This document shows positions 2,231 to 43,523 of a stretch of 54,440 nt of DNA, piece after piece (position 1 is the first letter of the stretch; the number at the start of each line of letters is the position of its first letter). Source of the stretch: Aestuariivirga sp. (GTDB taxonomy: Bacteria > Pseudomonadota > Alphaproteobacteria > Rhizobiales > Aestuariivirgaceae); contig NZ_JADCDA010000066.1 in assembly GCF_020252405.1 (NCBI RefSeq), forward strand, positions 1 to 54,440, written 5' to 3'. The translations under genes were made by a program, and so were the position numbers. Below the pieces are notes generated by a model. That model did not search any database. It worked only from the letters and a program-made list of their open reading frames with translations, and was not told the DNA's origin.

Positions 2231-5164
2231 ATGTCCACATCCTCCCCCCTGAAGCCCGGCGACCATCTCTGTCTCATCGATGGGTCTGGGTATATTTTCC
2301 GTGCCTACCATGCGCTTCCGCCCCTGACGCGCAAGTCCGACGGGCTGCCCGTCGGCGCCGTGCAGGGCTTCTGCAACATGCTGTGGAAGCTCCTGAGGGA
2401 GACGAAGGCCGGAGAGAAGCCCACGCATCTTGCGGTGATCTTCGATCATTCCTCCAGGTCCTTCCGCAACGACATCTACCCGCAATACAAGGCGCAGCGC
2501 CCGGAGCCGCCGGCCGATCTGCGCCCGCAGTTCGGGTTGATCCGCCAGGCCACCCGCGCCTTCAACGTCGCCTGCGTGGAACAGGCCAATTACGAGGCGG
2601 ATGACCTCATCGCCACCTATGCCCGCCAGGCGGTGGAGGCCGGGGCCACCTGCCGCATCGTCTCCTCCGACAAGGACCTGATGCAGCTGATCCGCCCCGG
2701 CGTCGCCCTCTATGACACCATGAAGGACCGCGAGGTGGGCGAGGCCGAGGTGCTGGAGAAATTCGGCGTGACGCCGGACAAGGTCATCGACATCCAGGCG
2801 CTCGCCGGCGACTCGGTCGACAACGTGCCGGGTGTGCCCGGCATCGGGGTCAAGACCGCGGCCCAGCTCATCACCGAATATGGCGATCTCGAAACGCTGC
2901 TGGCCAGGGCGCCCGAGATCAAGCAGCAGAAGCGCCGCGAGAACCTGATCGAGTTCGCCGGGCAGGCGCGGATTTCCAGGAAGCTGGTCACCCTCGACGA
3001 GCACGTGCCGGTGGAGCATGAGGCCAGCGGCTTCGCCGTCGACAGTCCCAGGGCCTCGCAGCTCATCGGCTTCGCCAAGGCGCTGGAATTCACCTCCTTC
3101 ACCCGGAAGGTGGCGGGCGAGCTTGACGCCGACTCCACCGCCATCGAGCCCATCCCCGTCGAGGTGAAGTTCTGGCCGCCGGAAGGTGGCGGGGCCGCGG
3201 CCCTTGCCCCGCCGCGCTTCGCCGCGAAGAAGGCGGCGCCCGCCGCCCGGACGCCCGCCGCCGCCGCCGAAGCCGCGCCCGGCGCGGCGGATGCGGCCCT
3301 CCTCGCCATCCCGGTCAGCCACGCCGATTACGAGACGGTGACGACGCTCAGTGCACTGAAGGATTGGTGCGCGGCGGCCCATGACAAGGGCTACATCGCG
3401 CTCGACACCGAAACCGACTCGCTCGATTCGATGCGCGCCAGTCTCGTCGGCGTGTCGCTGGCCACCGCTCCGGCCAAGGCCTGCTACATTCCGCTCCAGC
3501 ACAAGGCCACGGGCGGCGGCCTGTTCGGCGGCGGCGGGCTGGTCGATGGCCAGGCGCCGCTGGCGGACGCCCTCGCCACGCTCAAGCCGCTGCTCGAAGA
3601 CCCGTCCATTCTCAAGATCGGCCAGAACATCAAATATGACATCGAGGTGCTGAAGCGCCATGGCATCGCCGTTGCCCCCATCGACGACACCATGCTTATT
3701 TCCTACGTGCTCGAATCTGGCGATGTGGGCCACGGCATGGACGAGCTGTCGCTCCGCCACCTCAATCACAAATGCATCGCCTTCAAGGATGTGGCGGGCT
3801 CCGGCAAGTCGATGATCACCTTCGACCGCGTGCCGGTGGCGGATGCCGCGCGCTATGCCGCGGAGGATGCCGACATCACGCTGCGCCTCTGGCTGCTCCT
3901 GAAGCCGCGCCTCGCCGCGATGGGCAAGCTCGCGGTTTACGAGACATTGGAGCGGCCTCTGGTCGCCGTGCTGGCCGCGATGGAGATGGAGGGCATCCTC
4001 ATCGACCCCGAACTGCTGCGCAAGCTGTCCAACGAACTAGCCACCGCGGCGGCGGCGATCGAGACGGAGGTCTATGCGCTGGCGGGGGAGCGCTTCAACA
4101 TCGGCTCGCCGAAGCAGCTGGGCGACATGCTCTTCGGCCGCATGGGCCTGCCCGGCGGAAGGAAGACCGCCACGGGCGCCTGGAGCACCGATTCCGACGC
4201 GCTGGAGGATCTCGCGGGCCAGGGCGTCGAACTCGCCCGCCGCGTGCTCGACTGGCGCCAGCTCACGAAGCTCCGCTCCACTTACACCGATGCGCTGCCC
4301 AACTTCATCAATCCGGAAACGAGGCGCGTCCACACCTCATATTCGCTGGCGGCGACGTCCACGGGCCGCCTTGCCTCCACCGACCCGAACCTGCAGAACA
4401 TCCCCGTCCGCACCGAGGAGGGCCGCAAGATCCGCCAGGCCTTCATAGCGCCCGAAGGCTCGAAGCTGATGAGCGCGGATTACAGCCAGATCGAGCTGCG
4501 CGTGCTGGCCCATGTGGCGGACATCCCGCAGCTGAGACAAGCCTTCGCCGGGGGCCAGGACATTCACGCCATGACGGCCTCCGAGATGTTCAACGTGCCC
4601 ATCGAGGGCATGGACCCCATGGTGCGCCGCCGCGCCAAGGCGATCAACTTCGGCATCATCTACGGCATCTCGGCCTTCGGCCTCGCGAACCAGCTCGGCA
4701 TCGGGCGGGAGGAGGCGGGCGAATACATCCGCGCCTATTTCAGGCGCTTTCCCGGCATCAGGGACTATATGGAGGCAGCGAGGCAGGAGGCGCGCGACAA
4801 GGGCTATGTCGAAACCATCTTCGGCCGCCGCATGCATTTCCCGCGCATCAAATCGCCCAACCCCTCGGAGCGCGCCTTCCTCGAGCGCGCGGCGATCAAC
4901 GCGCCGATCCAGGGCGCTGCAGCCGATATCATCCGCCGCGCCATGATCCGCATGCCGGATGCGCTTGGCCAGTCCGGCCTCTCGGCCCGCATGCTGCTGC
5001 AGGTGCATGACGAGCTGATCTTCGAATGCGCGGATGCGGAAGCGGAGGCGGCCATGGCGGTGGTCAAAAACGTCATGGTCTCCGCCCCCGGTCCGGTGGT
5101 GAAGCTGAGCGTCCCCCTCCAGGTGGACGCACGGGCGGCGCAAAACTGGGAAGCCGCCCATTAG
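2231..5164 (+). CDS. polA: DNA polymerase I
   Basis: 977 aa, close to the usual family length. The N-terminal 5'-3' exonuclease (FEN) domain starts at LCLIDGSGYIFRAYHALPPL and includes EADDLIATYA. A linker rich in Ala and Pro (about 320-355) precedes the 3'-5' proofreading domain, whose DxE motif is intact (ALDTETDSLD, Asp392). The polymerase domain has motif A (SADYSQIELR, Asp750), motif B (RRRAKAINFGIIYG) and motif C (LQVHDELIFE, Asp927). All three activities therefore look competent. The enzyme removes Okazaki primers and fills gaps in excision repair. The gene stands alone: low-GC DNA lies upstream and a repeat-rich intergenic stretch downstream. Confidence 0.97.
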   Translation: MSTSSPLKPGDHLCLIDGSGYIFRAYHALPPLTRKSDGLPVGAVQGFCNMLWKLLRETKAGEKPTHLAVIFDHSSRSFRNDIYPQYKAQRPEPPADLRPQFGLIRQATRAFNVACVEQANYEADDLIATYARQAVEAGATCRIVSSDKDLMQLIRPGVALYDTMKDREVGEAEVLEKFGVTPDKVIDIQALAGDSVDNVPGVPGIGVKTAAQLITEYGDLETLLARAPEIKQQKRRENLIEFAGQARISRKLVTLDEHVPVEHEASGFAVDSPRASQLIGFAKALEFTSFTRKVAGELDADSTAIEPIPVEVKFWPPEGGGAAALAPPRFAAKKAAPAARTPAAAAEAAPGAADAALLAIPVSHADYETVTTLSALKDWCAAAHDKGYIALDTETDSLDSMRASLVGVSLATAPAKACYIPLQHKATGGGLFGGGGLVDGQAPLADALATLKPLLEDPSILKIGQNIKYDIEVLKRHGIAVAPIDDTMLISYVLESGDVGHGMDELSLRHLNHKCIAFKDVAGSGKSMITFDRVPVADAARYAAEDADITLRLWLLLKPRLAAMGKLAVYETLERPLVAVLAAMEMEGILIDPELLRKLSNELATAAAAIETEVYALAGERFNIGSPKQLGDMLFGRMGLPGGRKTATGAWSTDSDALEDLAGQGVELARRVLDWRQLTKLRSTYTDALPNFINPETRRVHTSYSLAATSTGRLASTDPNLQNIPVRTEEGRKIRQAFIAPEGSKLMSADYSQIELRVLAHVADIPQLRQAFAGGQDIHAMTASEMFNVPIEGMDPMVRRRAKAINFGIIYGISAFGLANQLGIGREEAGEYIRAYFRRFPGIRDYMEAARQEARDKGYVETIFGRRMHFPRIKSPNPSERAFLERAAINAPIQGAAADIIRRAMIRMPDALGQSGLSARMLLQVHDELIFECADAEAEAAMAVVKNVMVSAPGPVVKLSVPLQVDARAAQNWEAAH

Positions 5165-5280
5165 GATTCACAATGTCAATCAGCAGAAGGCACGTTAAGG
5201 ATGATATACCTAGCATAGGTTGGGAAAAGAGTCAAGAGTTTTCTTGCGTGGAATATCCCGGCTTCTCCACCCTCCAGCCC

Positions 5281-5362
5281 GTCATCCCGGCGAAAGCCGG
5301 GACCCCGCTTTCCTTCCCGGCGCGCTGAACCAAAGCTGGGCCCCGGCTTTCGCCGGGGTGAC
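5281..5362. repeat. GC-rich inverted-repeat intergenic element
   Basis: Two copies of a hairpin-forming unit in opposite orientation: GTCATCCCGGCGAAAGCCGG from 5281, and CCCCGGCTTTCGCCGGGGTG ending near 5360. Each arm is itself palindromic (CCGGC-GAAA-GCCGG type). This is the style of dispersed palindrome often seen between genes in Hyphomicrobiales. It could act as a transcription stop behind polA and selO, which converge here. Confidence 0.7.
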
Positions 5363-5413
5363 GGAATGAGAGGGTGACGGAATGAGAGAGTGACTGAATG
5401 AGAGAGTGACGGA
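5358..5413. repeat. 16-bp tandem repeat, about 3.5 copies
   Basis: The unit GTGACGGAATGAGAGA is repeated at 5358, 5374 and 5390, with a partial copy at 5406; only one or two bases differ between units. It abuts the right arm of the inverted element at 5281-5362, whose terminal GTGAC is the first part of unit 1. No coding sense is apparent. Confidence 0.85.
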
Positions 5414-5438
5414 GATCGGCTGCATCGCCCTTCTCCCG

Positions 5439-5511
5439 GAACATGCGCCAGGTCATATGCCTGAGCATGATCTTGTCGCAAAAGCGGTTCCACTTTTGCG
5501 GATCATGCTCT
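5439..5511. repeat. Dispersed palindromic repeat, family A, copy 1
   Basis: A unit of about 73 bases: a left part GAACATGCGCCAGGTCAT, then an imperfect palindrome with outer arms GAGCATGATC/GATCATGCTC and inner arms CGCAAAAG/CTTTTGCG around GGTTCCA. Related copies lie at 19506-19569 (reverse) and 20074-20146. It occupies the space between polA and the 3' end of selO, where it may stabilise or terminate transcripts. Confidence 0.85.
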
Positions 5512-5544
5512 GGTGCGTGCCGCGACGGGAGAAGGGGATAATCA

Positions 5545-6966
5545 TCACGTCCCGCAGAACGTCCGGTATGCCCCGTCCGGCTCCGCGGGCGCCTCGGCGT
5601 AACGCTCCGCGCCCGGCTGCTCTCCGTAAGGAGTCATCAGCACACGGAGCATCGCCTCGAAGGGCGCGAAATCCCGCCGCTCCACCGCCGCGGCGATCAT
5701 CTCCTCCACCAGGTGGTTGCGCGGGATGTAGGCGGGGTTCGCCGACCGCATCAGCGCGCGTCGCGCCTCTGGCGTCTGCGGGTCGCGCGCCAGGCGGTCG
5801 CGCCAGCCGGGCAGCCAGTCCTTCAGCGCTTCCGGTTCCCCGCCATTGCTCAGTATACGGAACGTGATGGTGAAGTCCGCCCGCGCCAGCCGCATGGCGT
5901 CGAGCATCGCCTGAATCAGGCCAAGGTCGCCGTCCTCCGCGCCCGCAAGCCCGATCTTCTTCCGGAAGCCCGCCAGCCAGTATTTCGCATAGATCGCGGG
6001 AAAGTCCCCGATCCGCTCCGTGGCAATGCGGATCGCCTCCTCGCGGCCGGGGTTGATGAGGTCCAGCAGCGTCTCGGCCAGCCGCGCCATGTTCCACTGC
6101 GCAATGGGCGCCTGGTTCTGGTAGGCATAGCGGCCATGGGTGTCGATGGAGCTGAACACCGTGCCGGGGTCGTAAGCATCCATGAAGGCGCAGGGGCCAT
6201 AGTCGATGGTTTCGCCGGAGATCGAGCAATTGTCGGTGTTCATCACGCCATGGATGAAACCGACCTGCGCCCATCGCGCGACGAGCGAGGCCTGCGCCTC
6301 CATCACCGCATCCAGCAGGGCGAGCGCGGGGTTCTCCGCGCCTTTCGCCTGCGGGTGGTGCCGGTCGATCACATGGCCGGTCAGCAGCTTCAGCGCCTCG
6401 AAATCCTGCCGCGCGGCGAAGAACTGAAAGGTGCCCACCCGGATGTGGCTTGCGGCCACGCGCGTCAGCACCGCGCCCGGCAGCGCGGCGTCGCGGTGGA
6501 CGCGCTCGCCCGTGGTGGCGGCCATCAGGGCGCGGGTGGTGGGAATGCCGAGGGCGTGCATTGCCTCGCTGACCAGATATTCGCGCAGCACCGGCCCCAG
6601 CGCCGCCCGCCCGTCGCCGCCGCGCGAAAAGGGGGTGCGGCCGGAGCCTTTCAGCTGGATGTCCCGGCGCTTGCCGGTCACGTCGATGACCTCGCCCAGC
6701 AGGATCGCCCGGCCGTCACCCAGCTGCGGCACGAAATTGCCGAACTGGTGGCCGGCATAGGCCTGGGCCAGCGGGCTGGCGCCGGCGGGGATGGCATTTC
6801 CCACCGCCACCTCGGCCGTGAGCAGGGCGGGGTCGATCCCCAGCCCGCGGGCCAGCGGTTCGTTCACCTTGATCAGCCGGGGGGCGGAGACCGGGGTTGG
6901 GTCCACCCCCACATGCATGGAGCCGGGCAGGCGGGCATAGCTGTTGTCGAAGGGAATGGCGTTCAT
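5545..6966 (-). CDS. selO: Protein adenylyltransferase SelO (YdiU family)
   Basis: 473 aa from ATG 6966 (MNAIPFDNSYARLPG); a TTG three codons earlier is also in frame. SelO pseudokinases transfer AMP from ATP to Ser/Thr/Tyr hydroxyls and have been tied to redox stress. Family hallmarks are present: AYAGHQFGNFVPQLGDGRA near residue 90, QLKGSGRTPFSRGGDGRA (nucleotide loop), GVMNTDNCSISG and IDYGPCAFMD (metal/catalytic segment). The C-terminus is YRTFCGT, the usual Cys-containing bacterial end. It is transcribed divergently from ahcY, and its 3' end faces polA across the repeat-rich intergenic stretch. Confidence 0.93.
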   Translation of the reverse strand: MNAIPFDNSYARLPGSMHVGVDPTPVSAPRLIKVNEPLARGLGIDPALLTAEVAVGNAIPAGASPLAQAYAGHQFGNFVPQLGDGRAILLGEVIDVTGKRRDIQLKGSGRTPFSRGGDGRAALGPVLREYLVSEAMHALGIPTTRALMAATTGERVHRDAALPGAVLTRVAASHIRVGTFQFFAARQDFEALKLLTGHVIDRHHPQAKGAENPALALLDAVMEAQASLVARWAQVGFIHGVMNTDNCSISGETIDYGPCAFMDAYDPGTVFSSIDTHGRYAYQNQAPIAQWNMARLAETLLDLINPGREEAIRIATERIGDFPAIYAKYWLAGFRKKIGLAGAEDGDLGLIQAMLDAMRLARADFTITFRILSNGGEPEALKDWLPGWRDRLARDPQTPEARRALMRSANPAYIPRNHLVEEMIAAAVERRDFAPFEAMLRVLMTPYGEQPGAERYAEAPAEPDGAYRTFCGT

Positions 6967-7013
6967 GACCGGCAATATAGGGCAGGCCGGGCGGAAGTTC
7001 CTCTTTAACAGGA

Positions 7014-7031
7014 CATAAAGAATTCTTTATG
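7014..7031. promoter_or_regulatory. Perfect 18-bp palindrome upstream of ahcY (candidate SahR-type operator)
   Basis: CATAAAGAATTCTTTATG is its own reverse complement over all 18 bases. It lies in the selO/ahcY divergent region, 67 bases before the ahcY start. From memory, ArsR-type SahR regulators of the SAM cycle in proteobacteria use an ATAAAG...CTTTAT palindrome before ahcY, which this resembles. No regulator gene is in the window, so the assignment is inference; the palindrome itself is direct observation. Confidence 0.6.
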
Positions 7032-7098
7032 TCTTCATGGACAGACTCCCGCCCCGCTGCTATAGACGCGCCCAAATTCAGGACAGAGGACAAGACCC

Positions 7099-8505
7099 AT
7101 GACCCGGACCCATGACTATCACGTTGCCGACATCACGCTTGCCGGCTGGGGCCGCAAGGAAATCGACATGGCCGAGGTCGAGATGCCGGGCCTGATGGCG
7201 ACGCGCGCCGAATACAAGGCGCTGCAGCCGCTGCGGGGGGCCCGCATCTCCGGCTCGCTGCACATGACGATCCAGACCGCGGTGCTGATCGAGACGCTGG
7301 CGGCGCTGGGTGCGGAGGTGCGCTGGGCCTCCTGCAATATCTATTCGACGCAGGATCACGCCGCGGCGGCGATTGCCGCCGCCGGCATCCCCGTCTTCGC
7401 CTTCAAGGGCGAGACGCTGAAGGAGTATTGGGACTTCACCGCGCGGATCTTCGACTGGCCGGACGGCCAGCCCACCAACATGATCCTTGATGACGGCGGC
7501 GACGCGACACTTTATATCCTCCTTGGCTCCAGGGCCGAGAAAGACGCGGGCCTCATCGCCCACCCCAGAAGCGAGGAGGAAGAGTGCCTCTTCGCCGCCA
7601 TCAAAAAACGCATCAGGGAACAGCCGGGCTGGTTCGACAGGGTGAAGGCCTCGATCAAGGGCGTCTCGGAAGAGACGACGACCGGCGTCCACCGCCTTTA
7701 CGAGCTGCAAAAGAAGGGTGAGCTGCCCTTCCCGGCCATCAACGTCAACGACTCGGTCACCAAGTCGAAGTTCGACAACAAATACGGCTGCCGCGAATCG
7801 CTCGTCGATGCGATCCGCCGCGGCACCGACGTGATGATGGCCGGCAAGGTGGCCGTGGTCGCGGGCTATGGCGACGTGGGCAAGGGTTCGGCGGCCTCGC
7901 TGAAGGGTTCCGGCGCCCGCGTCATCGTCACCGAAGTGGACCCGATCTGCGCGCTCCAGGCCGCGATGGACGGCTTTGCCGTGCAGACCATGGAGGACGT
8001 GGTGTCAACCGCCGACATCTTCGTCACCGCCACCGGCAACAAGGACGTGATCACGGTGGATCACATGAAGCAGATGAAGGACATGGCCATCGTCTGCAAC
8101 ATCGGTCACTTCGACAACGAAATCCAGGTCTCGGAACTCCGCAACTTCAAGTCCACCAACATCAAGCCGCAGGTGGACATGATCCATATGCCCTCGGGCG
8201 CCCGCATCATTCTGCTGTCTCAAGGGCGTCTGGTGAACCTCGGCAACGCCACCGGCCACCCGAGCTTCGTCATGTCGGCCTCCTTCACCAACCAGACATT
8301 GGCCCAGATCGAGCTTTTCACCTCGGCCGGGACGGACAAGTACAAGAACGAGGTCTATGTGCTGCCCAAGCACCTCGACGAGAAAGTGGCACGCCTGCAT
8401 CTCGACAAGCTGGGCGTGAAGCTGACAAAGCTCCGGGACGACCAGGCCGCCTATATCGGCGTCGCCCCGCAGGGTCCGTTCAAGCCGGAATATTACCGCT
8501 ACTGA
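7099..8505 (+). CDS. ahcY: Adenosylhomocysteinase
   Basis: 468 aa, the length expected for the bacterial form with the insertion. It reversibly hydrolyses S-adenosylhomocysteine to adenosine and homocysteine, relieving product inhibition of SAM-dependent methyltransferases. The start [20 protein letters not shown] follows AGAGGA. The NAD-binding Rossmann motif is [18 protein letters not shown] (about residue 255), substrate residues lie in [16 protein letters not shown], and the C-terminus KPEYYRY is typical. It is preceded by a palindromic putative operator and followed by GC hairpins before divL. Confidence 0.97.
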
Positions 8506-36986: not shown

Positions 36987-37997
36987 TTAGCCCGGTGCGG
37001 GTTTTCCGTTCTTCTTGCCGGGCTCACGTCCCGGTTTCGGGGAGACGAGACGCCTTGCGGTCGCCTCGTCGGTGATCAGGCCGAAAAGAAGTCCGTGCGC
37101 GAGAATGGCGCGGATGGCCCGAGTTTTCGATGTGCCGCCGGCAAGGGCGACGATCCTGTGGTTCTTCAAGTCGGCAAAGCGCGGCGCCATGGCGCGCGCC
37201 GAAACCGAGTTCGCCAGGTGCTCGCCCCGTTCGTTGAAGAAATGGCCCAGAAGCTCGGAGCAGGCGCCGGTCTTCATCACCTCGTCGACGTCCTCCTCGT
37301 CCACCATGCCGGCGGTGGCGATGAAGCTCTTGGCGTCCACCTCGCCGATGCCTGCGATGTAAAGCTCGGCCTCGCGCGCCATGGCGATGACGCCGGAGAC
37401 GCCATATTGCGCCTCCAGCACGTGGCGGTCCTTCTCCGTGTTGGCGAAGAAGGGGACGGGCATCACATAGGCCTCGGCGGATGTGCGCTCGGCCAGCCGG
37501 TGGATCACATCGAAGGGACTGGCCGCGAACCGCCGTGTGAGGCCGCCGAGCAGCGACACGAATTTCGTGTTGTGCGCCGCAACGCCCGGCATCAGGTCGA
37601 CGGCGGTGGCCAGCGTGCGGCCATGCCCCATGCCGATCATGCGGTACGTGCCCGACTCGATGAGGTTGCGCAGGTAGCGCGCTCCGGCCATGCCCAGTGT
37701 CCGCAATGGCAGCGGGCCTTCATCGATATTGGGAACCACCTCGCAGAAGGTGAGCCCGTAATCGGCCTTGAGCTTCTCCTCAAGCGCGATGCAGCCCGAA
37801 ATCGGGCCCTCGACGAAGACGCGGATCAGACCCTCGGCCCGGGCCCGGGCGATGAGCCGGTGCGCCTTGGTGCTCTGGACGCCCAAAAGCTCCGCCACCT
37901 CCCCTTGCGTCTTGCCGCCGGCGAAATGCAGCCACGCGGCCCGGGCCGCGAGTGCGGCCTCCTCGTCCGCCTGGGGGGAGGGCTGGTGCAGCGTCAA
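36987..37997 (-). CDS. eryD: SorC-family sugar-responsive regulator, EryD-like
   Basis: 336 aa from TTG 37997, which has a good GGAAG 6 bases upstream. Helix-turn-helix: LHFAGGKTQGEVAELLGVQSTKAHRLIARA. The large C-terminal domain binds sugar phosphates (YRMIGMGHGRTLATAVDLM, GAMAPRF-like and LAGGTSKTRAIRAIL segments). EryD represses ery genes in Brucella until erythritol or its metabolite is present. It is the first gene of the long reverse operon, and a 34-bp repeated element sits only 18 bases before its start, suggesting autoregulation. Confidence 0.86.
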   Translation of the reverse strand: MTLHQPSPQADEEAALAARAAWLHFAGGKTQGEVAELLGVQSTKAHRLIARARAEGLIRVFVEGPISGCIALEEKLKADYGLTFCEVVPNIDEGPLPLRTLGMAGARYLRNLIESGTYRMIGMGHGRTLATAVDLMPGVAAHNTKFVSLLGGLTRRFAASPFDVIHRLAERTSAEAYVMPVPFFANTEKDRHVLEAQYGVSGVIAMAREAELYIAGIGEVDAKSFIATAGMVDEEDVDEVMKTGACSELLGHFFNERGEHLANSVSARAMAPRFADLKNHRIVALAGGTSKTRAIRAILAHGLLFGLITDEATARRLVSPKPGREPGKKNGKPAPG

Positions 37998-38015: not shown

Positions 38016-38049
38016 GTGAAAATTTTTTCTTGAGATGCAATATTTTTCA
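38016..38049. promoter_or_regulatory. 34-bp direct repeat, copy 1; candidate SorC/EryD operator
   Basis: Begins GTGAAAATTTTTTCTTGAG and ends ATGCAATATTTTTCA. Outer arms TGAAAA and TTTTCA are inverted repeats. It differs from copy 2 (42514-42547) at three of 34 positions and has the same orientation. It lies 18 bases upstream of the SorC gene start. Its position before both ery transcription units makes it a likely regulator site; it also marks the left edge of the low-GC insert. Confidence 0.65.
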
Positions 38050-38352
38050 AGGTGCGCTGTCTGTCAACGGAATTCGTTTCTGCGCTGCACCATGTCAAAT
38101 CGCGATGCACAATTGAGAATTGCAGAAACTTCCGAAAATCACTTGACGTAAAGGAAGATTTTGCTTAACTTAGTTTCTATCGATTGAAATTTCTCAATCG
38201 ATTCAACGCAAGCAAAACAGGAGTGACTAAGGGCGATCGAGCTGTTCACATCCATCGACATCGAAGTGCTGCCGAGCTTCCGCCGGGCATCTTGTTGGTG
38301 AGACCAGTTGGGCCAGGGACCACCTCCCTGGCCCTTTCGCTCGCGGAGAACG
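38050..38352 (+). promoter_or_regulatory. Leader region of the island operon: promoter-like boxes and hairpins, no convincing gene
   Basis: AT-rich, unlike both flanks. Promoter-like boxes TTGACG (38143-38148) and TAACTT (38166-38171) are 17 bases apart. A perfect 9-bp hairpin follows (ATCGATTGA 38179, TCAATCGAT ending 38202). A 10-bp hairpin (38310-38334) stands just before the first gene. A frame ending at TGA 38299-38301 could give a short peptide (...SIDIEVLPSFRRASCW) but has no ATG, GTG or TTG with a ribosome site. Likely an untranslated, possibly attenuated leader. Confidence 0.5.
38310..38334 (+). terminator. 10-bp hairpin before the island's first gene (attenuator-like)
   Basis: GGGCCAGGGA (38310-38319) pairs exactly with TCCCTGGCCC (38325-38334) around CCACC, followed by TTTCGC. 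It ends 18 bases before the ATG of the decarboxylase homologue. It could be a weak terminator/attenuator or a structure limiting ribosome access. Confidence 0.6.
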
Positions 38353-38751
38353 ATGATGATCGTTGGTCGTCATGTAATCGCAGACTTGTCTGGCTGCCCT
38401 CCCGAACTCCTCTTGGATGAGGACTGGCTCAACAAGACCTTTTCCGAGGCGCTCGGCCGTGTCGGGGCTACAGTGATAACCCTCTCCTCCTACAAGTTTC
38501 CGGGTGAGGGCGGCGTCACTGGCCTGTTTCTCCTGTCGGAATCGCACGCCAGCTACCACACCTATCCTGAATATACTTACATCGCGATTGACATCTTCAC
38601 GTGTGGCAGTTGCGACCCCGAACAAGCTCTCGAGTTCGTAAGCCGCCAGCTCAAAGCGAACGTCTGGGAGTGCAAATCACTCCGGAGGCAGATTCCGTCA
38701 TCCTCCGCCGCGTGGACTCCGGCCAGTTCCGGAACAGTCTGTAACCTCTAG
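38353..38751 (+). CDS. S-adenosylmethionine decarboxylase (SpeD) family pyruvoyl enzyme
   Basis: 132 aa from ATG 38353 (MMIVGRHVIADLSGC), following CGGAG. Length and pattern match the short class 1b proenzyme. Self-cleavage site: LLSESHASYHTYPEY, with Glu63-Ser64 as the predicted scissile bond giving the pyruvoyl group, plus His69 and Cys84 (DIFTCG) of the processing/catalytic set. The aromatic after HT is Tyr71, where canonical SpeD has Trp (HTWPE). SpeD relatives have been reported to decarboxylate arginine or ornithine instead of AdoMet, so the substrate is uncertain. No spermidine synthase gene is near. It is the first gene of the four-gene island, 10 bases before the radical SAM gene. 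The C-terminal tail (SSSAAWTPASSGTVCNL) looks unstructured. Confidence 0.82.
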   Translation: MMIVGRHVIADLSGCPPELLLDEDWLNKTFSEALGRVGATVITLSSYKFPGEGGVTGLFLLSESHASYHTYPEYTYIAIDIFTCGSCDPEQALEFVSRQLKANVWECKSLRRQIPSSSAAWTPASSGTVCNL

Positions 38752-38761
38752 GAGGCAAGCG

Positions 38762-40186
38762 ATGGACTTGCGGCTCAACAGGACCGGTGCAGGTCGAATT
38801 TTCGACAAGCAGTTGCCCGTCTTCAACATCTTCTACCCGTCTCAGCACGATCTCGAACATGGCGACGTGTTCACAGACGGCATCTGTGCCGTCCAGGACA
38901 ACGACTTCTCGCAGACGAAGAGCGTAGCCCTCTATTTTCACTTCCCGTTCTGCGATACCATCTGCAATTTCTGCCCCTTCACGCGCGGAAAATACACCGA
39001 TCATCAGATCATCACCGATTACCTCGCAGCTCTCTGTAAGGAAGTCCGATCCAAGAATGCAACGGGAAAGCTGTTTACGCTGCCGGTCTCGGCAATTTTC
39101 GTGGGGGGCGGAACACCATCGCTTCTGACAGCGGAAGAGATCCGGGTCTTCGGTCAGTTAGTCCATCAGAACTTCAACCTGGCGGGACTACGGGAGTTCT
39201 CGTTCGAGTGCGAAGTCAAGAGTGTGACCGAAGATAAGGTGATCGCATTGAGGGACATTGGCGTCACGAATGCGCGCTTCGGCCTCCAAACCTTCGACCC
39301 CTACTGGCGTGACATGTTCGACCTCACCGCCAGCATCGAACAGATTTACGCGGCAGCTGCTCTCTTCGAGCGGCATATCCGGTATACGTCTTTCGACATT
39401 CTCTACGGGATGAATGGCCAGAGCCCGGAGATGTTCGAGCGGGATCTCGAAAAGGCGGTGGACGTCGGCAACAGCCTGATCGATGTCTACCCGCTCGACA
39501 ACGTTGTCACGCAGACAAGGCTACACGAGAAGACCAAGGCTGCAGGCCATGCCCCACTCACGGCCGAGATGCGCCACGAAATGAACGGTATGCTGCGAGC
39601 CTTCATGAGGTCCCGTGGCTTCCTTCCGCACAATGGGCACGGCTACGTACAGGCCTCAAAGACTGAATGTGATCGTGATCCCGTGGTGACGCGGGACTAT
39701 ACCTTCGATTATCACAATCATGTCTATGGATATCATGGGTTCGAGGTCGTCGGCTTCGGCGTCAACGCCATCAGCATATTGAAGGAGAAGGTGCTCACCA
39801 ATCCGAACAACCGGCGTTCTTATATCGACCAGCTCATGAAGAACGGACAGGTCAGCACGCAGCTGAGCCGGCACTCCCGTGAAGTTGATGCGTCGCGGTC
39901 GCTCGTCACCAGGCTTCCCTATCATGGATATGTGTCACGGGCCGAAGTGGACTGGGACCGCATGCCAGCAGAGACCCTATCTGCGCTCCATCAGCTCTAT
40001 GATGCCGGTCTGGTAGAGGATTGCGGCCCCGAGATCCTGCTCACCAGGCAGGGCTGGGAGTGGTACGTCAATCTCATGTATTTCATGATGCCGCTGTCGC
40101 AGCGCAAGATACTCGACGGATTCATCGTCCACAGTCTGGGCCAGCCCGGTCGGGAGCTCACGACATCCCAGGTTGTCTTCAGTTAG
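38762..40186 (+). CDS. HemN/HemW-like radical SAM enzyme
   Basis: 474 aa; ATG follows AGGAGGCAAGCG. The [4Fe-4S] motif is FHFPFCDTICNFCPF: Cys64-x3-Cys68-x2-Cys71. The SAM-binding GGGTP is at 115-119 (FVGGGTPSLL), and the family pattern FGLQTFDPYWRDMF follows. A HemN-type C-terminal domain extends to the end. True HemN oxidatively decarboxylates coproporphyrinogen III, but relatives do methylation, cyclopropanation and other chemistry in natural-product pathways. Its neighbours (decarboxylase homologue, MFS carrier, P450) and absence of heme genes argue for a specialised role. GC content is low (29 of 60 at 39001-39060, against 44 of 60 at 27541-27600). Confidence 0.85.
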   Translation: MDLRLNRTGAGRIFDKQLPVFNIFYPSQHDLEHGDVFTDGICAVQDNDFSQTKSVALYFHFPFCDTICNFCPFTRGKYTDHQIITDYLAALCKEVRSKNATGKLFTLPVSAIFVGGGTPSLLTAEEIRVFGQLVHQNFNLAGLREFSFECEVKSVTEDKVIALRDIGVTNARFGLQTFDPYWRDMFDLTASIEQIYAAAALFERHIRYTSFDILYGMNGQSPEMFERDLEKAVDVGNSLIDVYPLDNVVTQTRLHEKTKAAGHAPLTAEMRHEMNGMLRAFMRSRGFLPHNGHGYVQASKTECDRDPVVTRDYTFDYHNHVYGYHGFEVVGFGVNAISILKEKVLTNPNNRRSYIDQLMKNGQVSTQLSRHSREVDASRSLVTRLPYHGYVSRAEVDWDRMPAETLSALHQLYDAGLVEDCGPEILLTRQGWEWYVNLMYFMMPLSQRKILDGFIVHSLGQPGRELTTSQVVFS

Positions 40187-40195
40187 CAAGCGGAA

Positions 40196-41437
40196 GTGGG
40201 CGCAAGCATGCTGCGTGCGATTGCTGTTGATCATCGCCTGAGGCTCATGGTCTTCAACCAGGCCGCCGACACCATCGGAGCCCGAACCTTTGATACCGCG
40301 CTTGTGTGGATGGCACTTCAGGCGGGGGAGACATATGGCAGTGCGGCGCTGCTGGTCTTCCTGCGCTTTAGTCCCTACCTCGTGCTGGGACTTGTCGGTG
40401 GCTGGGTGAGCGACCAGGTTGATCGCCGGTGGGTCATCATTCTGGCCGATGGTCTGCGTGCGGCCACGCTGGCAGGGGCGGCGTTGCTGCTGTTAACTGA
40501 TGTGCCGTCCTCGGTTTCACTCGGTACGGCTGCCTTCGTTCTAACGTCGGTGAGGACGGTCTATCAGCCCGCATTTCAGGGTCTTCTTCCGCAGGTGGCG
40601 CCCGCAGGCATGATCGGTGCGGCAAACTCTGCGGTGCATGCGACAAACGAATTTTGCGGGATGCTTGCGCCGCTGCTGGCCGGAAGCCTGCTCGCCTTCG
40701 CCTCGCCCCTGGTCGTGGTCCTATTCGCCGCGGCCATGTTCTTGCTCGGTACCCTGAGCCTTGCCGCCCTCGACGCGGCTCAGCCGACCGGCACGAGGCA
40801 CTGCGTCCGGTGGACCTCCCTATGGAGCGACTACCGGGCCACGCTCATATCATTGACCCGGCGGCATCCCTCAACGGGGCGGGCGATCGTCATTAACGTG
40901 ATTGCGATCCTGGGCGTTGGGGGCCTGCTCAACCTCGCGATTCCCGCACGCATGGAGAGCGACGTACAACTCGGCGCATCTAGCTTTGGGATGTTCATGG
41001 CCATCATGGCGTCCGGAACCATTCCCGGCGCGCTCGCCGCCGCGCTGGTTGCGAGGAAGTCACAGCACTTGGCAATGGGCGCTTCCTGGCTGGCCTACGG
41101 CGCGCTGCTTGTCCTGTTTCCTCTGTCGTCGAACATCATGGTGCTCATGGCGCTTGGCCTGGCGCTTGGATTCTTCGGCGCGGTCGCGGATGTGCTGTTT
41201 GCCACCATCGTCCAGGAAACAATCGAACCGCGCGACATTTCCAAGACCTTTGCCATATTTTCTACCCTTGCGAACACCAGCGAAGCCATTTCCGGTCCCA
41301 TGGCTGCAGGTTTCATCGTCCTTGGTTCATTTGGTCTTGCCTTCACTGCCGGAGGAGGATTGGTGATCGTCACCTGCGTCGGCTACATCGCCTTGCGGAT
41401 CATCGCGCAAACACGCTCGCCGGTCCAGGAGGAGTGA
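40196..41437 (+). CDS. MFS transporter (EntS-like exporter class)
   Basis: 413 aa from GTG 40196 (an ATG at 40208, MLRAIAVDHRLRLMVFNQ, is an alternative). Twelve hydrophobic segments; the MFS A-type motif appears as GGWVSDQVDRRWVIILADGLRA between helices 2 and 3. The fold class includes siderophore and drug exporters. Gap of 9 bases from the radical SAM gene and 0 bases to the next gene's TTG, with AGGAGG supplied by its own last codons. Most likely it exports the cassette's product, although uptake is possible. Confidence 0.85.
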   Translation: MGASMLRAIAVDHRLRLMVFNQAADTIGARTFDTALVWMALQAGETYGSAALLVFLRFSPYLVLGLVGGWVSDQVDRRWVIILADGLRAATLAGAALLLLTDVPSSVSLGTAAFVLTSVRTVYQPAFQGLLPQVAPAGMIGAANSAVHATNEFCGMLAPLLAGSLLAFASPLVVVLFAAAMFLLGTLSLAALDAAQPTGTRHCVRWTSLWSDYRATLISLTRRHPSTGRAIVINVIAILGVGGLLNLAIPARMESDVQLGASSFGMFMAIMASGTIPGALAAALVARKSQHLAMGASWLAYGALLVLFPLSSNIMVLMALGLALGFFGAVADVLFATIVQETIEPRDISKTFAIFSTLANTSEAISGPMAAGFIVLGSFGLAFTAGGGLVIVTCVGYIALRIIAQTRSPVQEE

Positions 41438-42472
41438 TTGGAAACCTCGGCGCATTATCGTCGGCTCCGCGCTGCTTTTCCTCACCCATTGTGTTTCGAT
41501 GCGGCGACCGGAGTGTTCGTTGCAACGTCGATCGACACGGTCTCGTTGATGCTCAGACACTGCCGCGCGCCCGGGATGGGCCATCTTCGCCTGCCTGAAG
41601 GCAGCATTCGGGGCGCATCGGTCATAAACCGCCTGTTTGAATCCGCGCTGCTGCACAATCAGCATCCCTTTCGCATTGGTCCGATAGCTCCAGCTGCTGC
41701 GGAGCAGGAAGAGGAACGGCTTGTTTCGCTGCTTCGCAAGCACGCAATGGGCCGTTTCGACGTGATGAATGGCTGGCTGCGGCCGGCCGTGTCCCGTCTT
41801 CTGTTTGCCAGCCTCTTTGATGGCATGGACTGGACGCCGGGCGTCTACGCGGGAGCATACCAGGTCGTCAACTTGCTCGATGGCAAGTTTCACGGCACGT
41901 CCGAGATTGAGGCGGGAATCGAGAGCCTTTCACAGGCACTTGAGGCGTTCGGCGCCAGCCTGTCGGAGCCGAACCCGTTGCTGGCGCGTTTCGTGATCTT
42001 TGCCACGGGGCACGAAACTCCTGCGAACATGGTAGCAAATGCCGTGGTGGGTACCGACTGCACCCTGTCAGGAAACGTGTCGCACCTGCTGCTGGAGGGA
42101 TTGCGCTACGATCCGCCGATACAATGCCTCATCAGGCGGACGACAGAAGAGGCGGTCTTCGGCGAAGAAGTCATCCCGCCTGGCCGTCCAGTGCGCATTC
42201 ATCTTGGCCTTGCAAGCAGGGACGGCGCGCGCTACTGTAACCCCACGGGTTTTGACCTCGGTAACGACCGCTCCAGCGCGGGCCTCTACTTCGGCGCCCC
42301 GCAGGCGGGCTGCCCGGGTCGGCATACGGCTCTGGATCTCGCGAGTGTTCTGCTCACCACGCTGCAGCGATACATTGAAGGGCATCATTGCGTATACGTT
42401 GACTGGCAGTTCAATGACGATGTCAGAGCTATCGATCATCTCTACATCGCAAGACGGGGGCAGGCGACCTGA
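41438..42472 (+). CDS. Shortened cytochrome P450 with atypical heme loop
   Basis: 344 aa from TTG 41438 directly after the MFS stop, with AGGAGG upstream. P450 elements: I-helix FATGHETPANM (Glu193-Thr194 acid-alcohol pair), K-helix ExxR at Glu220-Gly-Leu-Arg223 (LLLEGLRYDPP), and heme-ligand loop YFGAPQAGCPGRHTALD with Cys292. Typical bacterial P450s are about 400 aa; the missing part is at the N-terminus (A- to C-helix region). In the heme loop, Pro replaces the usual Gly at -4 and Ala replaces the usual Arg/His at -2. It may therefore be a specialised or non-monooxygenase P450. Last gene of the island operon. Confidence 0.8.
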   Translation: METSAHYRRLRAAFPHPLCFDAATGVFVATSIDTVSLMLRHCRAPGMGHLRLPEGSIRGASVINRLFESALLHNQHPFRIGPIAPAAAEQEEERLVSLLRKHAMGRFDVMNGWLRPAVSRLLFASLFDGMDWTPGVYAGAYQVVNLLDGKFHGTSEIEAGIESLSQALEAFGASLSEPNPLLARFVIFATGHETPANMVANAVVGTDCTLSGNVSHLLLEGLRYDPPIQCLIRRTTEEAVFGEEVIPPGRPVRIHLGLASRDGARYCNPTGFDLGNDRSSAGLYFGAPQAGCPGRHTALDLASVLLTTLQRYIEGHHCVYVDWQFNDDVRAIDHLYIARRGQAT

Positions 42473-42513
42473 ATGGACAGGCACCGTCCTCATGAGCCGC
42501 CGCGGCGCATGGG

Positions 42514-42547
42514 GTGAAGTTTTTTTCTTGAGATGAAATATTTTTCA
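42514..42547. promoter_or_regulatory. 34-bp direct repeat, copy 2; candidate SorC/EryD operator upstream of eryC
   Basis: Begins GTGAAGTTTTTTTCTTGAG and ends ATGAAATATTTTTCA. Matches copy 1 at 31 of 34 positions, same strand. It contains an inner TTTC...GAAA dyad. It starts 41 bases after the P450 stop and ends 55 bases before the eryC ATG, and it marks the right edge of the low-GC insert. Confidence 0.65.
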
Positions 42548-42602
42548 GTTCATCATTGCCGCAGTTACGACAATACGCTGCAATAATAGCTGGCTCCGGA
42601 AA

Positions 42603-43523
42603 ATGGGATTTTCCCTCTCCGTCAACACCAACCCCTTCGTGAACCGCTTCGCGGAGCCGGAGGACCTGATCGCGACGTTGAGCGAGGAGGTGGGCATCGG
42701 CCACATTCAGCTGGTGCATGAGTTCATCAATCCGTCCTGGCCGGCGAACACGGTGAAGCGCCTCACCGACCGGATGGCGAAGGCCTGCGCTCAAAAACGG
42801 GCGAAGATCACCTCGGTCATGACGGGCCCCTATGGGCGTCTCAACCACTTCGCCCATCCGGATGCCGAGGTGCGGCAATATTACCTCGGCTGGTTCAGGC
42901 GGATGGCCGATATCGCGGCCGATCTCGGCGCGCCCGCCATCGGCACGCAGTTCGGCATCTTCACCTTCAGGGACTATGACGACGGGAAGCGCCGCGCCGG
43001 GCTGATGGAGATGGCGCTCGACTGCTGGCGCGGCGTGGCGGAACACGCGAAGTCGCGCGGCCTCGACTGGCTGTTCTGGGAACCCATGTCGGTTGGCCGC
43101 GAGCTTGGCCACACGCTGAAGGACGCGCAATCCCTGCAGGACTGGATCGACGCCGCGCGGCTGCCGATCCCGCTCAAACCCATGGTCGACATCGACCATG
43201 GCGACGTGACCTCGCCCGACCCAGCCGACGTCGATCCCTTCGCCTGGGCGAAGACCTTCGCCACCCGGTCGCCCATCATCCACATCAAGCAGTCGACCAT
43301 GAACAAGGGCGGCCACTGGCCCTTCACCGCGCAATACAACGAGAACGGCCGCATCACGCCAGACGCGCTCATCGCCGCGGTGAGGGCGGGCGGCGGCGGC
43401 GCCAATGAGCTCTGCCTCGAACTCGCCTTCCGGGAGCGCGAGCCGGCCGACCGCAGCGTGGTTGCGGCGCTGAGGGAATCCGTGGCCTACTGGGCGCCCC
43501 ATGCGAAGACGGGATATAATTGA
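42603..43523 (+). CDS. eryC: Xylose-isomerase-superfamily TIM barrel, probable tetrulose-4-phosphate racemase
   Basis: 306 aa; ATG preceded by CCGGAAA. Sequence features of the AP-endonuclease-2/xylose isomerase TIM barrel include LDWLFWEPMSVGRELG (Glu), KPMVDIDHGDVTS (Asp/His) and the late ELCLELAFRERE (Glu), all metal-ligand-like. EryC of Brucella converts L-3-tetrulose 4-phosphate to the D form. First of three ery isomerase genes, with a TGATG overlap to the next, and regulated presumably through the repeat at 42514. Confidence 0.87.
   Translation: MGFSLSVNTNPFVNRFAEPEDLIATLSEEVGIGHIQLVHEFINPSWPANTVKRLTDRMAKACAQKRAKITSVMTGPYGRLNHFAHPDAEVRQYYLGWFRRMADIAADLGAPAIGTQFGIFTFRDYDDGKRRAGLMEMALDCWRGVAEHAKSRGLDWLFWEPMSVGRELGHTLKDAQSLQDWIDAARLPIPLKPMVDIDHGDVTSPDPADVDPFAWAKTFATRSPIIHIKQSTMNKGGHWPFTAQYNENGRITPDALIAAVRAGGGGANELCLELAFREREPADRSVVAALRESVAYWAPHAKTGYN

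Follow-up and report, generated by a model that had tools for sequence, protein, structure and literature searches.

Gene content of the cassette

We analyzed a 54,440-nt stretch of DNA from Aestuariivirga sp. (contig NZ_JADCDA010000066.1; hereafter, the window), in which four genes form a compact cassette. The genes encode a SpeD-like S-adenosylmethionine (AdoMet, or SAM) decarboxylase proenzyme, a HemN-like radical SAM enzyme, a major facilitator superfamily (MFS) transporter, and a short cytochrome P450 (P450)-like protein. All four lie on the same strand with gaps of 10, 9, and 0 nt, and the guanine plus cytosine (GC) content is 0.586 in 38096-42513 compared to 0.666 in the remaining window. 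Both features had been named in an original prediction made from the sequence alone, and both were confirmed from the open reading frames (ORFs) and the base composition. The features are summarized in Table 1.

The family assignments of that prediction were supported by Pfam for three of the proteins. SpeD matched AdoMet_dc at 113.5 bits (cut-off 25; E 7.7e-33) and passed NCBIfam TIGR03330 (112.8 bits, cut-off 75.65), the radical SAM protein matched Radical_SAM (E 7.8e-14), and the transporter matched MFS_1 (68.4 bits, cut-off 33.4; E 6.7e-19). The P450 assignment held less firmly, as the protein is short and its Pfam p450 score of 22.7 bits (E 5e-5) falls just below the cut-off of 22.8. EGLR and FGAPQAGCPG were read from its sequence; we take these to be P450 motifs, the latter with the Cys heme ligand.

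The SpeD ORF is open from TTG 38308, likely starts at the ATG at 38353 after GGAG, and has its stop at 38751; the P450 gene has a TTG start after GGAGGAG. A promoter scan listed no plus strand site in the cassette leader, and a palindrome scan (2 or fewer mismatches over at least 18 nt) did not list the 9-nt inverted repeat found there. Rfam gave no match anywhere in the window, and PADLOC detected no defence family, with one marginal match (E 0.009) and no stretch passing.

Table 1. Features of the window and gene content of related loci
Locus	Feature or gene content	Position	Strand	Basis
Window	SpeD: class 1b AdoMet decarboxylase-like proenzyme	38353..38751	+	Pfam, NCBIfam, alignment, tree
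Window	HemN/HutW-like radical SAM enzyme	38762..40186	+	Pfam, NCBIfam, alignment, tree
Window	MFS exporter (MFS_1/MFS_3)	40196..41437	+	Pfam, NCBIfam, BLAST
Window	Short cytochrome P450-like protein, 344 aa	41438..42472	+	Pfam score, motifs read from sequence
Window	AT-rich cassette leader with 9-nt inverted repeat ATCGATTGA-N6-TCAATCGAT (~38179-38202); possible own promoter/operator	38096..38352	+	Read from sequence; function inferred
Window	Left copy of SorC/TIM-barrel intergenic operator-promoter region (repeat core 38016-38049)	38016..38103	.	Repeat; relatives; shuffles
Window	Right copy of operator-promoter region, before TIM-barrel gene at 42603	42514..42602	.	Repeat; relatives; shuffles
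L027, Glaesserella parasuis pD74	SpeD, radical SAM, P450, MFS (MFS as two ORFs), beside integrase			
L028, Klebsiella plasmid	Radical SAM (5' end apparently cut), P450 broken by ISL3 element, MFS; no SpeD			
L029, Xenorhabdus pXT141	SpeD, radical SAM, MFS, Orn/Lys/Arg decarboxylase (type II cassette)			
L030, Alicyclobacillus p1	Radical SAM, 132-aa protein, gene annotated MFS			
L079, genome G944	SpeD, radical SAM, P450, MFS, all full-length ORFs			
L080, genome G1056	MFS, with SpeD, radical SAM, and Orn/Lys/Arg decarboxylase in pieces (type II cassette)			
L081, genome G1138	SpeD, radical SAM, P450, MFS, all full-length ORFs			
L033, Deefgea piscis plasmid	215-aa protein, iron-containing redox enzyme, DUF3419 protein, SpeD, antibiotic biosynthesis monooxygenase, serine hydrolase	3492-8012		

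Recurrence in other bacteria

We searched 72,556 plasmid records with the radical SAM protein by tblastn, and 404 records matched. Among the best 20 matches listed, five stand apart (37-44% identity over 97-100%), two of which are Klebsiella records of equal length and identity. A search with a clade alignment identified G944 and G1056 among 392 genomes of a family that we take to be Enterobacteriaceae-like, and G1138 among 140 genomes of a presumably Pasteurellaceae-like family. In the same searches, the other 12 and 4 matching genomes scored only 140-158 bits, and one of these weaker matches, L061, was found on scanning to be a true HutW. The radical SAM clade of the window was found in seven other loci, four on plasmids (L027-L030) and three genomic (L079, L080, and L081).

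All four families occur together in three of these loci (L027, L079, and L081), a co-occurrence check that had been set beforehand. In L029 and L080, the type II cassettes, the P450 is replaced by an ornithine/lysine/arginine (Orn/Lys/Arg) decarboxylase. Across the eight clade loci, window included, an MFS gene accompanies the radical SAM gene in 8 (that of L030 by annotation), SpeD lies beside it in 6, a P450 is present in 5 and an Orn/Lys/Arg decarboxylase in 2, and the GC content of the cassette is lower than that of the flanks in 8/8. The cassette is a horizontally moved, recurrent element scattered over plasmids and chromosomes of distantly related bacteria; the original prediction was wrong to call it an orphan.

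Only the window's own genome carried the clade among 69 genomes of the host family, and the same was true of searches of its order (297 genomes) and phylum (398 genomes). One of 12 genomes in the genus of G1056 had a clade member, and none of 295 genomes of an Enterobacterales-like order did at a stricter cut-off without a positive control. The searched genome sets overlap. A scan of genome contigs seeded with window-specific octapeptides yielded only 23 loci at 24-33% identity and probably missed the true clade; no SpeD, MFS, P450, or SpeF match adjoined those 23 loci at E 1e-3. Four scans of viral contigs found no relative. Phage records gave 34 matches that were generic HemN-like (approximately 23-30% identity among the 20 matches listed), and at the DNA level the Glaesserella radical SAM gene was without a match in E. 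coli genomes.

As read from the ORFs only, the chromosomal cassettes of L079 and L080 lie among flagellar genes, each in a different genus: that of L079 between fliT-like and flgL/flgK-like genes, and that of L080 after an flhA-like gene. A lone cassette-type SpeD gene, its product 82% identical to L079 SpeD, was also observed on Klebsiella plasmid pINF237_02 (6001-6369), near a recombinase and an Rpn-family gene; the annotation of this stretch shows neither a radical SAM nor an MFS gene. The SpeD gene is probably a cassette remnant.

The radical SAM enzyme

The radical SAM protein of the window belongs to the HemN superfamily and falls in no named subfamily. Its best NCBIfam match was HutW (TIGR04107) at 145.2 bits against a cut-off of 400. 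The same model scored 190, 195, and 170 bits for clade members L079, L081, and L030, 205 bits for the sister protein L031, and 528 bits for the true HutW, L061. The seven cassette radical SAM proteins were monophyletic (support 97/97) in a tree of 29 rows that covered part of the distant loci; the split L080 gene was left out, and the wrong-frame rows L019_x and L071_x were kept and flagged as long branches. The nearest relative of the clade was L031, from a Cytobacillus kochii plasmid (8980-11603), where an MFS gene is present and no SpeD match was found in the locus. L031 thus represents a second mobile pair of radical SAM and MFS genes, which could serve as a natural control.

Residues were compared in an alignment of 51 rows, consisting of 7 cassette proteins, 43 others, and 1 duplicate that was set aside. 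Motif-bearing frames were used for L019_x and L071_x, and L006 was entered as a stop-free frame. Left out were L026 (no motif-bearing frame >250 aa), L074 (the same gene as L081), and L060 and L073 (pieces of the G1056 gene). We numbered columns by NocN. The available text of a preprint (PMC12871812) describes a salt bridge from NocN Arg171 that holds the SAM-I carboxylate, stacking of the SAM-II adenine on Tyr34, and hydrogen bonds to the SAM-II methionine end from Tyr96, Arg153, Asp196, and Ser225, of which Asp196 touches the amino group. We take Arg153 to contact the SAM-II carboxylate.

Tyr34 (HemN Tyr56), the three Cys of CX3CX2C, Gly100, Thr101, Gly157, and Asp196 were kept in every row (7/7 cassette and 43/43 others). 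In contrast, the Arg153 column, Arg in 43/43 others, holds His (6 rows) or Asn (the window) in all 7 cassette rows, and the Ser155 column, Ser in 43/43 others, holds Arg in 7/7. Arg171 is Leu in the 7 cassette rows and in L031, compared to Arg in 42/43 others. Two further changes are shared more widely: Tyr96 is Phe in 7/7 cassette rows and in two others, and Ser225 is Asp in 7/7 cassette rows and in 17 others, including all 16 HutW-like rows. The corresponding residues of the window protein are Y58, C64/C68/C71 of the CX3CX2C motif, N170 at the NocN R153 position, R172, L188, D212, and D241. Arg153 and Ser155 are both retained in the sister protein L031, whose locus gave no SpeD match (n = 1).

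The NocN-type set of methionine-end contacts is therefore reduced in the cassette clade to one member of four, Asp196. This bears on mechanism and not on HemN-family membership, because HemN itself lacks these contacts according to the available preprint text. The clade has lost two Arg (153 and 171) and gained one two residues along (155), which leaves one likely carboxylate partner fewer. As iron chelation requires the carboxylate of SAM-I, the decarboxylated molecule is most simply taken to be SAM-II; such a molecule is the expected product of SpeD.

SpeD

The SpeD of the window keeps the motifs E-S-H...H-T-Y-P-E...F-T-C-G. When SESHASYHTYPEYTYIAIDIFTCG was aligned to 1tlu, the equivalents of T. 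maritima S63, H68, and C83 were found, together with the HTxPE proline. The roles of the catalytic residues are those given in the available text of PMC10407285, which also describes one proline as invariant among bona fide AdoMet decarboxylases but not among arginine decarboxylases; we infer that this is the proline of HTxPE. Retention of the pyruvoyl Ser, the His, the Cys, and this proline favors AdoMet, over arginine or ornithine, as the likelier substrate. The window genome (G000, 93.7% complete) contains one SpeD match only, that of the cassette, and no match to Spermine_synth (PF01564, SpeE), with controls positive in 11/14.

Over aligned columns, the T. maritima enzyme was the closest to the window SpeD, at 40% identity; by BLAST the window protein was 50-52% identical to the L027 and L029 proteins over 82-83 residues. 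The cassette SpeDs and one Deefgea SpeD separated from six comparison SpeDs (support 97/93). The last approximately 30 residues of the window SpeD do not align with relatives. A frame change near this end was considered, as the frame +2 peptide resembles the last strand of the relatives and ends immediately ahead of the next ribosome site, but that frame went unrecognised by a profile built from six relatives. The 132-aa protein of L030, encoded between the radical SAM and MFS genes, was considered as a candidate decayed SpeD; it scored 13.7 bits in Pfam (cut-off 25) and gave no match to the cassette SpeD profile.

The Deefgea SpeD comes from a different small cluster (L033), where the DUF3419 protein is, we presume, BtaA-like. 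This cluster is another candidate use of decarboxylated AdoMet (dcAdoMet).

MFS and P450 partners

The window MFS protein was 25-27% identical to those of L028, L029, L039, L079, L080, and L081 (E 4e-35 to 1e-41 in a small set) and had no detectable similarity to those of L030 and L031. The product of the L030 gene annotated as MFS likewise showed no detectable closeness to the MFS proteins of other cassettes. P450s from the four other cassettes that have one form their own clade, with the window P450 outside. Plasmid pHS-Rec carries a P450 and an MFS gene with no SpeD or radical SAM gene annotated, an arrangement that fits a protective exporter or P450 and that plain decay explains equally well. 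A P450 fragment 50% identical over 149 residues to the Glaesserella cassette P450 was observed on a Pantoea agglomerans plasmid (L038, 6007-6471), with no SpeD or radical SAM gene annotated within 6 kb; 64/178 matching records were Pantoea.

Proposed pathway and alternatives

A pathway can be proposed from the observed co-occurrence, its chemistry and product being conjectural. SpeD would self-cleave to yield its pyruvoyl group and would decarboxylate AdoMet. The HemN-like enzyme would use ordinary AdoMet on its [4Fe-4S] cluster to generate a 5'-deoxyadenosyl radical and would take dcAdoMet as a substrate, most likely in the second SAM site, where Arg has become His or Asn. A dcAdoMet-derived unit, either a CH2 group or the aminopropyl-sulfonium unit itself, would then be joined to an acceptor, the P450 would oxidise the product, and the MFS carrier would export it and may give self-protection. 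That the SpeD product feeds the radical SAM product line, the product of which is exported, is in our judgment an even call. That the second SAM site has been retuned to accept dcAdoMet from a dedicated SpeD is a tentative proposal suggested by the residue changes. An acquired operon is supported, and its families would imply the making and export of a small molecule, as the original prediction held; of the bases that prediction offered, AdoMet is now favored over arginine and ornithine.

Several points weigh against this pathway. The 43 comparison rows are not independent, as 16 are HutW-like and 22 came from one pattern scan. The available text of PMC12871812 does not state which group of SAM-II is touched by NocN Arg153, and it describes the SAM-II methionine end in HemN as having no direct residue contact although an Arg is present. 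The new Arg at 155 may simply have taken over a carboxylate contact, at either SAM site. L030 has the His/Arg changes with no recognisable SpeD in its locus, the extent of that search, and a SpeE gene could sit in the unassembled part of the window genome. The Deefgea SpeD, from a cluster without an annotated radical SAM gene, branches with the rest of the cassette SpeDs to the exclusion of the window SpeD (94/91); given this nesting, the cassette SpeDs alone are not a clade. Lastly, orthology of the window P450 with the other cassette P450s was not supported, one origin being recovered in 28% of bootstrap trees, and the P450 may have been recruited twice or the four-gene set assembled twice.

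An alternative that we consider improbable, yet the strongest of those weighed, is that the roles of the two enzymes are dissociated: dcAdoMet would only supply aminopropyl groups to another enzyme. The radical SAM enzyme would use ordinary AdoMet twice, as in class C, and it and SpeD would each act on a separate part of one product. Characterised HemN-like natural product enzymes use AdoMet as the second SAM (available text of PMC12871812 and PMC6050322), and the second-site Asp196 and Tyr34 are kept in 7/7 cassette rows. However, no aminopropyltransferase was seen in any cassette and no PF01564 match in the window genome, and the second-site Arg change is specific to the clade among the compared rows.

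It is also doubtful that neofunctionalisation has turned the SpeD homologue into an arginine or ornithine decarboxylase serving an agmatine- or putrescine-based pathway, with the radical SAM enzyme modifying the amine, or something attached to it, with AdoMet only. The HTYPE proline, taken as the one that distinguishes bona fide AdoMet decarboxylases from arginine decarboxylases, is kept, and the protein passes TIGR03330. The Orn/Lys/Arg decarboxylase of the type II cassettes can be argued either way: it places amino acid decarboxylation in the cassette, yet it is already a separate enzyme for that purpose beside SpeD. In favor of this alternative, a main competitor for the decarboxylation step, a SpeD without SpeE is the anomaly that led to the arginine/ornithine decarboxylases (available text of PMC10407285).

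That the radical SAM protein is a ChuW/HutW-like haem or tetrapyrrole enzyme acting in iron acquisition is very unlikely. Although HutW is the best NCBIfam match and the Asp at the Ser225 position is common to 16/16 HutW-like rows, the window protein and three other clade members (145-195 bits) all miss the cut-off that true HutW passes, and positions 153, 155, and 171 differ from 16/16 HutW-like rows. No haem uptake gene was seen directly beside the window cassette or annotated directly beside the four plasmid cassettes, with the qualifier that a siderophore transporter lies approximately 2 kb upstream in the Klebsiella plasmid.

A polyamine supply operon, in which SpeD merely restores spermidine-type polyamines, is highly improbable: the cassette SpeD is the genome's only AdoMet decarboxylase match, but there is no SpeE match in the genome and none annotated beside the plasmid copies, and SpeD shares its operon with genes for a radical SAM enzyme, an exporter, and a P450. 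The notion that the genes are chance neighbours from separate events draws on the different P450/MFS order in the window and a possible other origin of the P450, and is scarcely credible with SpeD adjoining the radical SAM gene in the window, L027, L029, L079, L080, and L081.

Insertion site

The cassette is bracketed by a 34-nt direct repeat, 91% identical, at 38016-38049 and 42514-42547, and its first gene begins approximately 300 nt inside the repeat. The limits of the original prediction, 38050-42513, coincide with the interior of this repeat, which that prediction does not name. By Pfam, the left neighbour is a SorC-family regulator (Sugar-bind domain; minus strand, 36987-37997) with a solute-binding protein beyond, and the right neighbour is a xylose-isomerase-like TIM-barrel gene. 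An ATP-binding cassette (ABC) ATPase and a DAO-type oxidoreductase were matched farther left. Other nearby genes would encode permeases and triosephosphate-isomerase-like and RpiB-like proteins, and we take the whole to be an erythritol-type operon.

The TIM-barrel protein is present in 18/37 genomes of the genus, the window's own included. Four same-genus loci (L042, L045, L046, and L047) have the SorC and TIM-barrel genes adjacent, 110-116 bp apart, without the cassette and with a single copy of TGAAAATTTTTTCTTGAGgTGCAATATTTTTCA in the intergenic region. Two more distant loci, L048 and L049, have a similar layout with a diverged operator copy. The remaining TIM-barrel genomes have SorC placed differently or no match in flanks of up to about 1.5 kb. 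Outside the 34 nt, the left tail resembled the region of the four relatives (0/500 shuffles as good in 4/4 comparisons), as did the right tail (0, 0, 36, and 2 of 500 shuffles as good), and the two tails did not resemble one another (148/500 shuffles as good). The repeat on both sides and tails like the single region of the relatives indicate that the cassette inserted into the intergenic region together with a second, diverged operator-promoter copy. A single crossover with a circle already carrying such a region would yield two operator copies. Lying between two SorC-type operator-promoter copies, the cassette may obey the neighbouring sugar-catabolism regulator in this host.

Elsewhere in the window, a low-GC stretch (about 0.50) at the start of the contig (193-1806) encodes a 537-aa protein; its match to cytidine/deoxycytidylate deaminase extends across 187 residues, as though an insert were present.

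Relation to known systems and significance

Methylation, lactonisation, and cyclopropanation are known for HemN-like enzymes (available text of PMC12871812 and PMC6050322). The cassette enzyme shares with the class C methylases and cyclopropanases NosN/NocN, TbtI, C10P, and Jaw5 the CX3CX2C motif, the second-SAM Tyr, the Asp196 equivalent, and a small specialised-metabolite setting. It differs from them in having His/Asn for Arg153, Arg for Ser155, and Leu for Arg171, and in its pairing with SpeD, which the available texts do not describe for them. With the anaerobic haem methyltransferase ChuW/HutW, its best curated match, it shares the Asp at the S225 position, but it scores far below the cut-off (145 of 400 bits) and has three SAM-site positions changed. 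The window SpeD, in turn, has the cleavage Ser, catalytic His and Cys, HTxPE, and T. maritima enzyme match in common with class 1b SpeD and its SpeDA/SpeDC offshoots, whereas it has no detected SpeE partner and groups with cassette and Deefgea SpeDs.

In the available text of PMC10491745, a review of SAM uses apart from methylation, dcAdoMet is named only for spermidine and for a route to microcin C that is not ruled out there. Microcin C aminopropylation shares the idea of an aminopropyl unit from AdoMet in an antibiotic; there, however, MccD is called a SAM-dependent methyltransferase and the MccE N-terminal domain a pyridoxal phosphate (PLP) decarboxylase, and the same text names no radical SAM enzyme or SpeD. 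In agreement with the original prediction that no described pathway has this gene set, titles and abstract openings in the open-licence PubMed Central (PMC) literature yielded no paper on a SpeD-radical SAM set, which is weak evidence of absence as subscription papers fall mostly outside that collection. A HemN-type radical SAM mini-cluster is of a known kind; the SpeD partner points to unusual chemistry.

If the proposed pathway is true, dcAdoMet would serve beyond polyamine synthesis as a radical building block, in a four-gene product-and-export cassette that plasmids spread. The SpeD and radical SAM set is compact and mobile, and would make a small model in which a new reaction could be tested. 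That the set keeps turning up on plasmids, including those of Glaesserella, Klebsiella, and Xenorhabdus, suggests that the exported compound may matter in bacterial competition or signalling.

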